Below are positions 2,126 through 57,936 of a stretch of 64,000 bases of DNA, piece after piece; positions within the stretch are counted from its first letter, which is position 1, and each line of letters opens with the position of its first letter. A model generated the notes under the pieces. It did not search any database. It worked only from the letters and a program-made list of their open reading frames with translations, and was not told the origin of the DNA. This stretch comes from Hydrogenimonas sp. (lineage in GTDB: Bacteria > Campylobacterota > Campylobacteria > Campylobacterales > Hydrogenimonadaceae), in assembly GCA_003945285.1 (NCBI GenBank), contig AP019005.1:992001-1056000 (forward strand), read 5' to 3'. The translations under genes were made by a program, and so were the position numbers.

Positions 2126-3452
2126 AACTCAGCATGGTAGGAACCGGATATGTTGGCCTGGTGACAGGGACCTGTTTCGCGGAGATGGGAAACAGGGTCG
2201 TCTGTGTAGATATAGATGAAAAGAAGATAGAAAACCTCAAAAAAGGGATTATCCCCATCTACGAGCCGGGCCTCGAGACTATGGTAAAAGAGAATTACGA
2301 GCGCGGGACCCTCAGCTTCACAACAGATATAAAAGAGGCTCTCGAAAAGAGCGACATCATCTTCATCGCGGTAGGAACCCCGCAGGGTGAAGACGGCAGC
2401 GCCGATCTGCGGTACGTTCTAAAGGTGGCCGAAGAGATAGGGCAGAATATGGTCCACGATATGATCGTCGTGGACAAATCTACCGTCCCGGTAGGCACGG
2501 CCGACCTTGTAAAAGAGACGATACAAAAAGAGCTCGACAAAAGAGGCAGCTCTCTTAAGTTCTCCGTAGTCTCCAACCCGGAGTTTCTCAAAGAGGGGTC
2601 CGCCATAGAGGACTTCATGAAGCCCGACCGTGTGGTCATAGGTGCCGACGACGAAGAGGCGATGGAGACGATGAAAGAGCTCTACGCCCCTTTACCCACA
2701 ACCATGAACGCTTCATAGCGATGGATGTAAGAAGCGCAGAGATGACAAAATATGCCGCAAACGCCATGCTCGCTACAAAGATCAGTTTCATGAACGAGAT
2801 AGCCAACATATGCGAGCGTGTAGGGGCCGATGTAAACAGGGTCCGCGTAGGAATTGGAAGCGACAGAAGAATAGGCTACAGCTTCATCTACCCCGGATGC
2901 GGATACGGCGGAAGCTGCTTTCCCAAAGATGTACAGGCCCTTATGAAAATAGCCGAAGATGCGGGGTATGAGCCCAAAATCATCCGCTCCGTGGAAGAGG
3001 TCAACAGAGAGCAGAAAAGAGTGCTCGCCGAAAAGGTGATAAAACGTTTCGGTGAAGATTTGAGCGGAAAGACCTTCGCGTTGTGGGGTCTCAGCTTCAA
3101 ACCAGAAACCGACGATATGCGCGAAGCGAGCTCCATAACCGTCGTGGAGGAGCTGACGAAACGGGGAGCTAAAATAAAGGCGTACGATCCAAAGGCGATG
3201 GAGGAGGCGAAAAACTTCTATCTCAAAGGGAACGAAAACGTAGAGTATGTCAAGAGCAAATATGACGCTCTCGACGGTGCGTGCGCCATGATTCTCGTGA
3301 CGGAGTGGAAGGAGTTCAGAAGCCCCGATTTCGAAGAGATGAAGCAGAGGCTCGCTTCACCGGTAATCTTCGACGGACGAAACCAGTTCAACGCTAAAAA
3401 GATGGAGAAGAAAGGTTTCGAGTATCACCAGATAGGGGTACCCGAAGCCTGA
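2122..3452 (+). pseudogene. ugd: UDP-glucose 6-dehydrogenase, interrupted by a one-base frameshift
   Basis: UDP-glucose dehydrogenase oxidises UDP-glucose to UDP-glucuronate with NAD+. Frame 2122-2718 carries the N-terminal Rossmann fold ([10 protein letters not shown] near residue 7) and stops early after LYAP. Frame 2721-3452 carries the rest, including the catalytic cysteine motif [11 protein letters not shown] and the C-terminal UDP-binding domain. Adding one C or T in the CCCCTTT run at 2687-2693 restores the family sequence [16 protein letters not shown] across the junction, so one base is missing. Either the gene is inactivated or the assembly has an indel. All other positions look well conserved, favouring a recent lesion or a sequencing error. 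It overlaps the flanking GT39 genes by a few bases. Confidence 0.9.
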
Positions 3453-5023
3453 TGAGCCCCAAAACACCAGACTACGATCCGCTTATAGAGCGCTACGGCC
3501 TCTTCGTACTCACGGTAGTCGTATATCTCAGCTTCTTTTTCAACCTCGGTCCGGTCCCTCTTTTCGACCTGGACGAGGGGGCTTTCAGCGAAGCGACAAG
3601 GGAGATGCTCGCTTCGGGCAACTACATAACCACCTATCTCGGCGGAGATCTGAGGTTCGACAAGCCCATACTCATCTACTGGCTACAGGCTGCCAGTGTC
3701 AAGCTTTTCGGCCTGAACGAATTCGCTCTGCGCCTCCCCTCCGCACTTGCGGCTACCGCATGGGCCGCGCTGCTTTACCTTTTCACTAAGAGGCTTTTCG
3801 ACGCCAAAACTGCGCTGCTCGCTACTCTCTTCATGGTTTCGGCACTCCAGATCAGTGTCATAGCCAAAGCGGCTATCGCCGATGCGCTGCTGAACCTCTG
3901 GATAGCCGCGAGTATGTTTTCGATACTGCTTTACATAAAAAGCGACGAGAAGAGGTGGCTATACGCCGCATTTGCCGCCATCGGCTTCGGAATGCTCACG
4001 AAAGGCCCTGTAGCGGTTATGATCCCGGTTGCGGTCACATTTCTATATTTTCTCTTCAAGCGCGACCTGAAACGGTGGGCCGTTTCGGTATTCAACCCCG
4101 TCGGTATTCTCATATTCCTGGCTGTCGCGCTTCCGTGGTACCTGCTCGAGTATATGGACCAGGGGATGAAGTTTATCGAAGGCTTTTTCTTCAAGCACAA
4201 CCTTTCGCGTTTCGAGAACTCTTTCGAAGGGCACAGCGGCTCCATCTTCTACTACATCCCTGTACTTCTTGTAGGAACCATGCCGTTCACAGGGGTTTTG
4301 ACCGCCGCAATCATACGCATAAAGGAGTGGATCAGTAACGATACGACCCTCTTTCTGGTCCTCTGGTTCGGCTTTGTGTTCATCTTCTTCTCTTTTTCAG
4401 GAACGAAGCTTCCACACTACGTGATCTACGGCTACACACCGCTGTTTATAATTATGGCACTGCAGTTCTCCTCCATAAAATCTCCGCTCTGGATAGTCCT
4501 GCCGCCCGCTGTTTTGATGCTGGTTCTGATCTTTCTGCCCGAGATCGCGAACGCGGCGCTTCCTAGTGTCAAAGACCCTTACGCAAAAGCTCTGATAGAG
4601 GAGAGCGGTTCACTTTTCGGCTGGCGCTACAAGATGGAGATAGCCCTGCTGCTGGCCGCACTCGTCGTGGCGTGGCGGATGATAGAAGGGAAACTTGCCA
4701 AATCCCTGGTTACCGGCGCGGTGACGCTTCTGCTGGTAAACGGAACGATACTTCCCACATACGCGGCGCTCGCCCAGCAGCCGATAAAAGAGGCGGCCCT
4801 TTTTGCGAAAAAACATCGTCTCGATGTCGTGATGTGGGGCATCAACGTACCCTCGTTTATGGTATACTCTGAAAAAATCGTCCCCAGGCGGGACCCTGAA
4901 CCGGGTGAAATAGTCCTGACGAAGATAACCAAACTCAAAGAGGTAGAATCGTACCAGTCCATCTTCAAAAAGTACGGCATAGTTCTGGTACGGATAGACT
5001 CCATGAAAAAAGGAAAAGAATGA
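3452..5023 (+). CDS. GT39-family glycosyltransferase, ArnT-like
   Basis: Inner-membrane protein of 523 residues with about a dozen predicted helices. Near the N-terminus it has DLDEGAFSEATREM (from residue 39) and then RFDKPILIYW, the signature of the ArnT branch of GT39 that uses undecaprenyl-phosphate sugars as donors on the periplasmic side. The start overlaps the last base of ugd's stop and its end overlaps the next GT2 gene, showing translational coupling. With the adjacent GT2 enzyme, a likely scheme is that the GT2 loads a sugar on undecaprenyl phosphate and this enzyme transfers it to lipid A, a glycan or a protein. The sugar is not known; no other arn genes are in the window. Confidence 0.87.
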   Translation: MSPKTPDYDPLIERYGLFVLTVVVYLSFFFNLGPVPLFDLDEGAFSEATREMLASGNYITTYLGGDLRFDKPILIYWLQAASVKLFGLNEFALRLPSALAATAWAALLYLFTKRLFDAKTALLATLFMVSALQISVIAKAAIADALLNLWIAASMFSILLYIKSDEKRWLYAAFAAIGFGMLTKGPVAVMIPVAVTFLYFLFKRDLKRWAVSVFNPVGILIFLAVALPWYLLEYMDQGMKFIEGFFFKHNLSRFENSFEGHSGSIFYYIPVLLVGTMPFTGVLTAAIIRIKEWISNDTTLFLVLWFGFVFIFFSFSGTKLPHYVIYGYTPLFIIMALQFSSIKSPLWIVLPPAVLMLVLIFLPEIANAALPSVKDPYAKALIEESGSLFGWRYKMEIALLLAALVVAWRMIEGKLAKSLVTGAVTLLLVNGTILPTYAALAQQPIKEAALFAKKHRLDVVMWGINVPSFMVYSEKIVPRRDPEPGEIVLTKITKLKEVESYQSIFKKYGIVLVRIDSMKKGKE

Positions 5024-23707: not shown

Positions 23708-23957
23708 ACAGACGTTACGCAAAAAGCGTAACGTCATCTCGAAATCTACGATTTCGAAGCTTTAGGGGGGTGCAGGGGACGTACAGTCCCTGCCAAAGCT
23801 TGGGCTTGGCTCAAGCTTTGCATCCATCGAAGACAGATATTACGCAAAAAGCGTAACGTCATCTCGAAATCTGTGATTTCGAAGCTTCAGGGGGGTGCAG
23901 GGGACGGCCGGTCCCCGCCAAAGGTTGGGCTTGGCTCGAGCTTTGAGTAACATCAAT
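23708..23957 (+). repeat. tandem pair of 125-bp multi-hairpin repeats
   Basis: Two units (23708-23832 and 23833-23957) are nearly identical over their length. Each holds four small palindromes: TTACGC-AAAAA-GCGTAA, CGAAATC/GATTTCG, a GGGGAC/GTCCC hairpin, and AAAGCTTGGGC with its partner GCTCAAGCTTT. Compensating changes between the units (for example TACGAT/TGTGAT loops, GTACAGTCC/GGCCGGTCC) leave the stems mostly intact. Related pieces are found at 161-280, 38691-38756, 44541-44570 and 48587-48650. Confidence 0.85.
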
Positions 23958-51061: not shown

Positions 51062-51150
51062 ACTCCGCTTTTCCCAACCGGAATTGTAAGGCTGCAATGA
51101 TCATGACGAGTTCCTCTATCTCTATTTTTGTATTTGGGTTTTGGGCAATA
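51062..51150 (-). repeat. duplicated coding-like remnant, copy 2
   Basis: Imperfect copy of 48469-48549, sharing GGAATTG, GGCTGCAA, GACGAGTTC and TCTATCTCTATTT in order. It sits between the IscU-like gene's start and the nuclease-like gene, so it overlaps their promoter region. Confidence 0.6.
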
Positions 51151-51179
51151 TGGCTGAAATTCCTGCTAAAATTTATGTA

Positions 51180-52742
51180 ATGAAAAAGATAGCGATTCTA
51201 CTTCTGTTGCCGATGTTACTTCAGTGCCGTGAATTTCGTGTGGCAAGCTACAATGTGGAGAACCTATTCGACCTAAAAAAGAGCGGCACCGAATACACCG
51301 AATATATACCTTTCACAGGGTATGGCTGGAACGAGAAGATGTTCTCGCTGAAGCTTAAAAATATTTCGAGAGTAATCTGCGATCTGAAGCCGGACATACT
51401 GGCCCTTCAGGAGATCGAGAGCGACGATGCTTTACGGTCTCTACAAAAAGCCGCGGCACTCTGCGGCAGCGATTTTCCGTATCGTGCCATCGCCGACGAC
51501 AAGGAGAGCACGGTCAAAACCGCCCTGCTCTCGAGATTTCCGATTCTTTCAAAGCGTGAGATAGACCCGGACGGAACTTTGGGTACAAGAAACATACTGG
51601 AAGTCACACTCTCGGTAGATGGCAGGAGGCTTACACTCTTCGTGAACCACTGGAAGTCGCGCAGCGGGCCCGAAAGCAGAAGAGTAGTCAGTGCAGAGGC
51701 GCTAATGAAGAGGCTCAGAAATTTCCGCGGCGACTATGTACTGCTCGGCGACTTCAACAGTAACTGGGACGAGCGGCGTGTGATCAGAAGCTCGAAACGG
51801 CTCAACGACACCGGAGGGGTGACCGGGATAGGCGATATATTGAAAACCTGGAGGGGAAAAAAGAGTGTCGACAAATACACTCTTTCGCACGGCTACCACT
51901 ACGATCTGTGGCTGGAGCTGCCGCCTAGGCGCCGCTGGTCGCACAACTTCTTCGGCCGCAAAGGCTCGCTGGATCACATAATTCTACCTCCGGCCATGTT
52001 CGACGATAAGGGAGTCAACTACGTCGACAGATCGTTCAGGCGGTTTACGCCCTCCTATCTTTTTCGATCCAACGGCGCCATCTACAGATGGAAACTGGCC
52101 AAAAAGGGGCACGGCAGACATCTTGGAGAGGGCTACTCCGACCACCTTCCGATCTATGCCGAATTTACTACCGATCCGTTCCGTTTCGCAAAGAAGAGAG
52201 AGCCGAAAGAGCGTATAAAAGGTAGAGACGGAAAACTATCGCCTACAGAGGTCTCTGTCGCCGATCTCTACGGAGCGGTTCCCGGCCCGTGCAGGTTCGT
52301 GGTGCCGGAAGCGGTTGTCATCTATAAAAAGGGGCCGATAGCCATACTAAAAGAGCCCGGCGGCAGAGCTATAACGGTTTACAAAGATGTGCAATCACTG
52401 GAGTTTGGCAGAAAATACAGAGTCGAGATAAGAAGGATCTACAGATACCGCGGTCTGCAGGAGGTCACCGAGTTGAAAGTTTTAAAAGATCTTGGCAGAA
52501 CGGATACCGCACCCATGCTTCTTTTCAATCCGGAAAATATCGAAGTGCCCGCAGATATCGGCGAAGTCATAGCCGAAATTGAGGGTCTATACAAGCGCGG
52601 GTACCTCTATTACGGGAGTGGGAGGAAGATAAAACTCTATTTCAAAGATCGTTCGAAGCGCCCCAAAAGCGGTGAAAAGGTTGTGCTCCGGAATGTGAGG
52701 GTCTCAATCTACAAAAACAGGGCTGAACTTGTCATCGATTAA
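51180..52742 (+). CDS. exported endonuclease/exonuclease/phosphatase-family protein
   Basis: 520 residues from ATG 51180. A short signal sequence (KKIAILLLLPMLLQC) precedes the EEP fold: VASYNVENLFD, ILALQEIES (metal Glu), NHWKS, LLGDFNSNWDE and the final YSDHLPIYAEF (Asp-His). About 170 C-terminal residues after it resemble an OB-fold (YKDVQSLEFGRKYRVEIRR). Enzymes of this class cut nucleic acids or phosphodiesters; an exported nuclease for DNA scavenging is plausible. Confidence 0.85.
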   Translation: MKKIAILLLLPMLLQCREFRVASYNVENLFDLKKSGTEYTEYIPFTGYGWNEKMFSLKLKNISRVICDLKPDILALQEIESDDALRSLQKAAALCGSDFPYRAIADDKESTVKTALLSRFPILSKREIDPDGTLGTRNILEVTLSVDGRRLTLFVNHWKSRSGPESRRVVSAEALMKRLRNFRGDYVLLGDFNSNWDERRVIRSSKRLNDTGGVTGIGDILKTWRGKKSVDKYTLSHGYHYDLWLELPPRRRWSHNFFGRKGSLDHIILPPAMFDDKGVNYVDRSFRRFTPSYLFRSNGAIYRWKLAKKGHGRHLGEGYSDHLPIYAEFTTDPFRFAKKREPKERIKGRDGKLSPTEVSVADLYGAVPGPCRFVVPEAVVIYKKGPIAILKEPGGRAITVYKDVQSLEFGRKYRVEIRRIYRYRGLQEVTELKVLKDLGRTDTAPMLLFNPENIEVPADIGEVIAEIEGLYKRGYLYYGSGRKIKLYFKDRSKRPKSGEKVVLRNVRVSIYKNRAELVID

Positions 52743-52802
52743 CGGCCCCTTTATCAATATTGAAATAGAATTACCGCGTAATCTTGTTATAGATGATGAG
52801 TT

Positions 52803-52979
52803 ACTGACCTTACGCAAAATTCGCACGCCAAGCTGGATTTGCCCTGCAGTACGCTGCAAAATATCTAGAGGTGCCCTGAAAACCGCTAACGCCTTCGGCA
52901 CCCTACGGGCAAGCGCGGTTTTTTGAACGATATTTTTCCGCTCAAATCCCGGGGCTGACAAATTTTGCGTAAGGTCAGT
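52803..52979. mobile_element. 177-bp MITE with 19-bp terminal inverted repeats
   Basis: Perfect 19-nt inverted ends (ACTGACCTTACGCAAAATT at 52803-52821 and its inverse at 52961-52979) are flanked by GAGTT on both sides (52798-52802 and 52980-52984), a 5-bp target duplication. There is no coding frame; the centre has a hairpin with AACCGC/GCGGTT arms followed by six Ts. A piece of the same end occurs at 57796-57806. Confidence 0.85.
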
Positions 52980-53001
52980 GAGTTATTGTAAAAGGATGCC
53001 G

Positions 53002-53778
53002 ATGGGCACTATTGAGCTGAGTACTATCTTTCTTGTTGCGTTGTTGGGATCGTTCGGCCACTGTATAGGTATGTGCGGCGGTTTCGTGCTTGCATATACC
53101 GCGGCAAAAGTGGATACCCACTGGTCGAAGCAGAGACAGCTTGTAGCGCATCTTCTCTACAGCGCGGGCCGTGTGACGAGTTATATGGTTGTCGGTGCGG
53201 TTTTCGGTTTTCTCGGTCAGAAAGCCGGCTTCGATATGACGGCAAAAGGGGTGCTTTTTATTGTTGTCGGTCTTGCAATGCTGCTTATCGGTCTCTCTTT
53301 GATAGGGAAGCTCAGGTTTTTGAACTCCATCGAGTCCTCCATAGCCAGGAGCTCCTTTTTCGGAAGGATGATAAAGGCGGCTATTCATTCAAAAAATCTT
53401 GCGAGTTTCTACTTTATGGGTATGCTCAACGGTTTCATACCGTGCGGTCTTGTATACTTCTTCGCTACGGCGGCAATCGTCGCGGGTTCCGCACTCAAAG
53501 GGGCTATTGTGATGGGGGTCTTCGGCATAGCTACCATTCCGGCGATGCTCGGGGTAGGCATATTCTCCTCGTTTATAAAAGGTTCGTCATACAGGATGCT
53601 CGTGATCAAGATAGCCGCCGTAATAGTTATGCTGTTCGGTCTCTTTACGATATATAAAGGGTATATAATGATTGTAAACCCGCAGATAATGATGCACAAG
53701 ATGCACGAGATGCAGAAGCGGATGCCGATTCTTCCGACAGGCGGCGGTTCAAACGGAGATAGTCGTCACCCTATGTAG
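53002..53778 (+). CDS. TauE/SafE- or DsbD_2-like membrane protein
   Basis: 258 residues from ATG 53002 behind AAAAGGATG; a GTG at 52978 lies inside the MITE end and is rejected. Six to seven helices. FGHCIGMCGGFVLAY near the N-terminus is the cysteine motif of the UreH/DsbD_2 group; IPCGLVYFFATAA in the second half repeats it. Such proteins pass thiol electrons or metal (copper, nickel) through the membrane, often for cytochrome oxidase maturation. The insertion upstream may have changed its promoter. Confidence 0.85.
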   Translation: MGTIELSTIFLVALLGSFGHCIGMCGGFVLAYTAAKVDTHWSKQRQLVAHLLYSAGRVTSYMVVGAVFGFLGQKAGFDMTAKGVLFIVVGLAMLLIGLSLIGKLRFLNSIESSIARSSFFGRMIKAAIHSKNLASFYFMGMLNGFIPCGLVYFFATAAIVAGSALKGAIVMGVFGIATIPAMLGVGIFSSFIKGSSYRMLVIKIAAVIVMLFGLFTIYKGYIMIVNPQIMMHKMHEMQKRMPILPTGGGSNGDSRHPM

Positions 53779-57564: not shown

Positions 57565-57936
57565 ATCCTGCCCTTTCTCGTCGATGAATGGTGTTGTGCA
57601 AATTTACCGGTGTTTTGCTGCCCAATCTCTACTTTTGTCTTGAATTGTTATGATACCGGAGGCTGGATCATATAATAACAATATTACAATTATGAGTGTT
57701 AATATAAGATAAACCCGAATATCGGAATAGAGTGGTTTGAAATCGTTGCAATGCTTGCGTTCAGGCGTTTTGGGGAAAATCTGAAGCGTATCCGTAAGGT
57801 CAGTTATTTAGAGATTTAGGATAAATCGAATGATTTGTCAACTTTGATTATCCAAGTAGTATAGCGCTGCCTTTGTTCGTATGCGTATCTATAGTTACCG
57901 TTTCCGGATATCTCCTAACTGTGTGTACAAGTGTTC
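57565..57936. other. AT-rich gap with a MITE-end fragment
   Basis: GTAAGGTCAGT at 57796-57806 equals the right end of the 52803 MITE, but no partner end is seen. No gene is visible. Confidence 0.45.

Follow-up and report, generated by a model that had tools for sequence, protein, structure and literature searches.

A conserved folded core recurs between unrelated ends in miniature transposable elements of Hydrogenimonas and other genomes of its order

Here we show that a 177-bp miniature element (MITE) in Hydrogenimonas sp. has as its interior a conserved multi-branched fold, with a core of about 106 nt, and that this core is shared by elements with unrelated ends, which is its main feature and was overlooked in the earlier note on this DNA. 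The element lies in a window of 64,000 nucleotides (contig AP019005.1, positions 992,001 to 1,056,000 of the forward strand), from whose first letter plain positions are counted. Its identity as a MITE is secure. We infer how ends are exchanged and what the core is for, and consider it likely that the element is non-autonomous, with ISAba11-group ends moved in trans and a core carried by several types of transposase through the exchange of ends.

The earlier reading of 52803-52979 as a MITE of 177 bp is borne out by its ends, its duplication and its copy number (Table 1). The terminal inverted repeats (TIRs) are perfect, pairing over 19/19 positions, and GAGTT stands on both sides as a 5-bp target duplication, which may alternatively be written as 7 bp (T-GAGTT-A), sharing tip bases of the element. 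No credible open reading frame lies within the 177 bp, as had been claimed; an 85-aa minus-strand frame in the open reading frame list extends from the MITE into the flank. The internal hairpin and T-run described before are both present, but the loop is a 28-nt branched structure, and the fold computed for the 177-nt strand reaches -69.6 kcal/mol (z -5.69), a stability matched by 0/200 shuffles. The end fragment placed at 57796-57806 amounts to a 12-nt right-end match, CGTAAGGTCAGT, at 57793-57804, the remaining element being unrecognisable.

Table 1. Features of the element and its surroundings, in positions of the window
Feature	Position	Strand	Basis
Upstream gene, endonuclease/exonuclease/phosphatase family (PF19580)	51141..52742	+	ORF list, Pfam
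TAGAAT, promoter -10-like box (putative promoter)	52766..52771	+	conserved (TAnAAT) before the orthologous gene in displayed relatives
Target duplication GAGTT, left copy	52798..52802	.	flank comparison
Complete MITE, 177 bp	52803..52979	+	ends, genome matches, flank comparison
Left TIR, 19 nt, ACTGACCTTACGCAAAATT, ISAba11-group type (ACTGACCTTACGCAA...)	52803..52821	+	repeat comparison, IS records
Conserved structured core, model R1, 78 bits in window copy	52834..52950	+	alignment and covariance model
TAGAGGTGCCCTG, extra piece in core, resembles end of type C small element	52866..52878	+	comparison of copies
Core apex: stem 52879-52886/52915-52922 around two small hairpins	52879..52922	+	fold, alignment
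Apex hairpin GCC-TTC-GGC	52891-52899	+	fold, alignment
Apex hairpin CCC-TAC-GGG	52901-52909	+	fold, alignment
T-run	52919-52924	+	fold, alignment
Right TIR, 19 nt	52961..52979	-	repeat comparison
Target duplication GAGTT, right copy	52980..52984	.	flank comparison
Downstream gene, DsbD_2 (PF13386) membrane protein	52996..53778	+	ORF list, Pfam

The element belongs to a sizeable family in its own genome (2,193,435 bp; G000), where BLAST finds 43 matches (about 40 copies) and a 16-nt end pattern, CTKACCTTMCGCAAAA, occurs at 133 sites with 2 mismatches allowed, against 6 for a backward control. Among 34 copies, the flanking 5-mers agree exactly (5/5) in 14 and at at least 4/5 positions in 23, compared with 1% and 9.4% for mismatched flanks, in which left and right flanks are taken from different copies; allowing a shift adds three copies with flanks matching over 6 bp and one over 7 bp. 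The insertion had been called recent, which holds only in a relative sense: full-length-matched copies are 79-94% identical to the window copy, and the family is therefore not one young burst. The corresponding site is empty elsewhere, as 0/15 displayed orthologous upstream regions in other genomes hold the MITE (16 loci were displayed, the own one among them); sharing of the sequence by relatives, which the earlier note had named as refuting the insertion, was thus not observed. A relative of the downstream gene is present in 17/18 genomes of the genus, and G001, the best aligned, with a gene 87% identical, is continuous through the insertion site without the MITE.

Other small elements occur in the same surroundings. 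In G005 (L273), the spacer before the orthologous gene carries a different small ISAba11-end element, whose end is of the CTGATGTTACGCA type; there the insertion precedes the promoter-like box. Two small elements close together at 23708-23860 of the window form family B, of about 125 bp and with another ISAba11-end type (ACAGACGTTACGCAAAA...), which also occurs in G007 and G016. The type C element, of which the window copy carries a piece in its core, is complete in two other MITE copies at the matching spot, nested with its TAGGGCACCTCTAAAGGCCCC ends in the core of L041:501-937 (G000:C1:341595) and of L033:501-936 (G000:C1:1577437); short type C pieces remain there in several further copies. 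A pseudoknot GGTGCC/GGCACC in the window copy was dropped, since GGTGCC is part of the inserted C-type piece and is missing from copies without it.

The core reaches well beyond this family. Searching 80 relatives with the MITE gave matches in 6, own genome included, and in the other five the interior alone matches, between other ends where these are readable. Twenty cores of three end types align with 94.3% paired cells, changes on both sides in 12/39 pairs, and a covariation score of 0.227, compared with 0.077 shuffled and at most 0.089 when slid. Rows for the A2 alignment were chosen by hand: an insert or an alignment shift led to the exclusion of the window copy, of L022 and of the A1 rows from G013. 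The covariance model R1 matches 32/298 genomes of the order, in 10/81 genera and often in several copies (G438 11, G490 7, G262 7, G077 5), among the best 13 matches at most per genome. In a 42-row alignment (A3), which was fitted to the R1 model and so favours the structure, both-side changes affect 32/39 pairs, with a score of 0.484 vs 0.143. Unpaired letters are conserved across these rows as well (CTAAAAA, AA(C), CCCT.CGGG and ACG), and an A5-stem-loop-stem-T6 apex is conserved across families. Rfam 15 gave 0 matches in the window stretch and 0 at the core of 13 further loci, where three tRNA matches nearby were all that it returned.

It might be argued that the element is an ordinary MITE with palindromic filler and that the matches in distant families are unrelated look-alike terminators. 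A-T stems with T-runs are indeed common, near-threshold R1 matches are weak, and plain terminators may account for some of the weaker ones (E 1e-3 and above). We nevertheless regard this as very improbable, given full-length matches over all 106 positions at E 1e-8 to 1e-17, multi-copy in other families and flanked there by inverted repeats. In addition, 40 control loci with related ends or IS are without the core, except for separate core elements in two G007 loci; the core is therefore not required for ISAba11-type ends.

The ends around the core are of several kinds. Type A elements of G000 have ends ACTGACCTTACGC and a 5-bp duplication, and type D (L010), present as one copy only, has another end, with GTATCAAAAA on both flanks (10 bp). 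In G007, a congener, the ends are TACCAATCC, and a 3-bp TNA duplication is seen in 10 of the 11 copies (out of 12) that pass the end filter, against a null of 41%, which is high because TAA is common beside all copies. In G490, of another family, ends CAGGGCTGTTTCAYG are accompanied by exact 10-bp duplications in 3/4 distinct copies (4 distinct of 7), and G438 and G053 have ends like CTGATGTTACGCA and ACTTATGTTACGCA, plus variants. Two hybrids in G000, L038 and L047, combine one A end with one D end each; no target duplication was seen by eye at either, and they may therefore be dead recombination products rather than intermediates.

The transposase behind the MITE is likely of the ISAba11 group, judging from its ends, which are of the type of that group (IS701 family). 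The earlier note had proposed a search for a full transposase flanked by the 19-nt ends; the own genome holds just a decayed C-terminal remnant with one end: an IS701-type fragment at G000:C1:1600119-1600427, whose profile match covers 104 positions only, beside an end at 1600091. A profile search of 18 genus genomes found only the remnant in G000, and a protein search, run without a positive control genome, found an intact transposase of the right type in 0/18. PF01609 gave 0 matches in the own genome, and the search for the parent therefore turned to named records that carry the exact end. MAGs of Leptospiraceae, Bacteroidetes and Desulfobacterales have the exact MITE ends too, and it was the Bacteroidetes loci that led to an IS701-type transposase: in one such genome, two IS copies with these ends adjoin a transposase scoring with NCBIfam transpos_IS701_2, one above and one just below the cut-off. 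Plasmid relatives, among them one annotated 'group ISAba11', include four named IS with IS701/IS4-type transposases and ends ACTGATGTTACGCA or TCTGATGTTACGCA; for 2/4 of these the flanks shown contain an exact 5-bp repeat. For ISAba11 itself, 5-bp repeats, TATAG and ATTTA, are reported (PMC7885321). Insertion sequences of this group, found for example on Acinetobacter plasmids, thus resemble the MITE in their terminal ACTGAYNTTACGCA and 5-bp duplication, and differ from it in being about 1.1 kb long with a transposase.

Further searches returned nothing, whether with two short C-terminal peptides in Pfam, with one in plasmids, or with the MITE by blastn in plasmids. A pattern scan of viral contigs gave 14 loci, judged from the collection size, rather than from a computed control, to be at chance level. 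The G000 remnant (L227:1592-2208, 2208-4001; G000:C1:1600091 onward) adjoins, by eye, a tRNA-like stretch, as well as a Cas9-like gene with weak Cas9_a and Cas9_REC matches below the cut-off. A Desulfobacterales genome, G436 (a 1.7-Mb MAG), has 59 end sites of the same type, and its elements measure about 200-530 bp. The loci examined there (L087, L155, L159, L163 and L167) are without the core and represent another large MITE family.

The two arms of a given copy tend to match each other. In G438, the two ends of one copy agree at 12.3/14 positions and those of different copies at 6.4/14 (p 0.0009; 7/11 copies), and in G053 the values are 11.4 and 9.5 (p 0.008; 5/7 copies, with a one-base anchoring error in one that lowers the match). 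In G000 they are 16.9 and 16.5 of 18, with 0/50,000 shuffles as high (32/38 copies). The test is strong in G438 only, with its 7 copies. By eye, end variants between G438 copies (L292-L297) are mostly transitions, mirrored on both arms. Counted over 30/38 G000 rows, truncated or rearranged ones having been dropped, the end stem has 24 single variants, 5 double complementary ones, against 0.8 expected, and 0 double non-complementary ones, and the inner stems have 72 single against 2 mirrored double changes, with 1.6 expected; most variants are thus one-sided. In the G000 family, arms match clearly at the ends but only weakly in the inner stems. This favours fold-back correction, an alternative being selection by the transposase for matched ends.

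These observations bear on whether mutation alone keeps the pairing, with template switching in the hairpin making one arm a copy of its partner and the core being an inert relic of common descent. Such a reading, which we think possible at somewhat under even chances, accords with mirrored variants in the ends too and with end pairs matching within copies, where RNA function is unneeded. The conservation of unpaired loops over several families is left unexplained by arm copying, however, and mirrored changes are few in the inner stems of G000.

Selection on RNA pairing could instead account for the covariation, if the core were kept as a host or element RNA or as a bidirectional terminator. 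The conserved apex, the conserved unpaired letters and the compensatory pairs of the 42-row alignment all speak for this, as does the position of the window copy downstream of a promoter-like box. Standing between the TAnAAT box and the DsbD_2 start codon, the MITE is probably in the 5' leader of that gene, and for the same reason it is possible that this copy stops or redirects transcription, as had been suggested. The placement of the family, taken from 30/43 copies with home-made gene calls, gives the terminator idea no support. All 30 are intergenic, against a coding share of about 89% in the window, and there is no excess at gene ends: 21 lie in tandem, 7 in divergent and 2 in convergent spacers, against 23, 7 and 3 among window spacers. 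For 16 of the 30, a predicted start follows within 60 bp, which would be odd for a strong terminator, and T-runs in tandem spacers point both ways (13 same, 8 opposite). A pattern scan for simple terminators gave 0 matches, though stem and T-run are present, the loop being long and branched. Together with the lack of Rfam matches at the core, this makes a conserved RNA or terminator role rather unlikely in our view.

The reading that we prefer is one in which the ends are exchanged around the core. An ISAba11-group transposase, since decayed in G000, would have acted in trans, excising the MITE at its ACTGAC... ends and inserting it. The long palindrome would fold back on itself when single-stranded, and repair or template switching along the hairpin would keep its two arms alike; the same process could copy a new end from one side onto the other. 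Several transposase types might in this way have come to move one and the same core, one-sided hybrids being the intermediates. Extending this, the core may act as a chassis, fold-back correction of the arms giving new ends on both sides and passage between transposase families (with 5-bp, 3-bp and 10-bp duplications), so that it persists across the order while transposases come and go; this wider proposal we offer tentatively, as one that has rather less than an even chance of being right.

Several short bacterial elements invite comparison. QMITE of Coxiella, SPRITE/BOX of pneumococcus and Correia of Neisseria are likewise short, with inverted ends, a strong fold and many copies, and are MITEs with described RNA or terminator roles; the parts consulted of these accounts, unlike the present case, mention no fixed folded core across different ends and duplication lengths (PMC10969869, PMC5896051). 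TIMEs, miniature derivatives of Tn3 that give rise to mosaic transposons, are mosaic and non-autonomous as here, their ends coming, by the title of the report, from one family (Tn3), whereas ours are of several kinds (PMC4133298). Titles and abstract openings in the open literature gave no description of this core or of end exchange in bacterial MITEs. The MITE class itself is known, and what seems new here is the combination of a conserved fold with ends that would be exchangeable around it.

For genome annotation, the core constitutes a new, unannotated structured family, and small sequenced genomes that hold hybrid copies, arms that match and ends of several types provide a concrete test system. 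MITEs are generally regarded as deletion relics bound to one parent transposase. A core recurring between unrelated ends would show how non-autonomous elements outlive their parents, and a folded module between differing ends suggests that parasites of this kind can switch from one mobilising enzyme to another.
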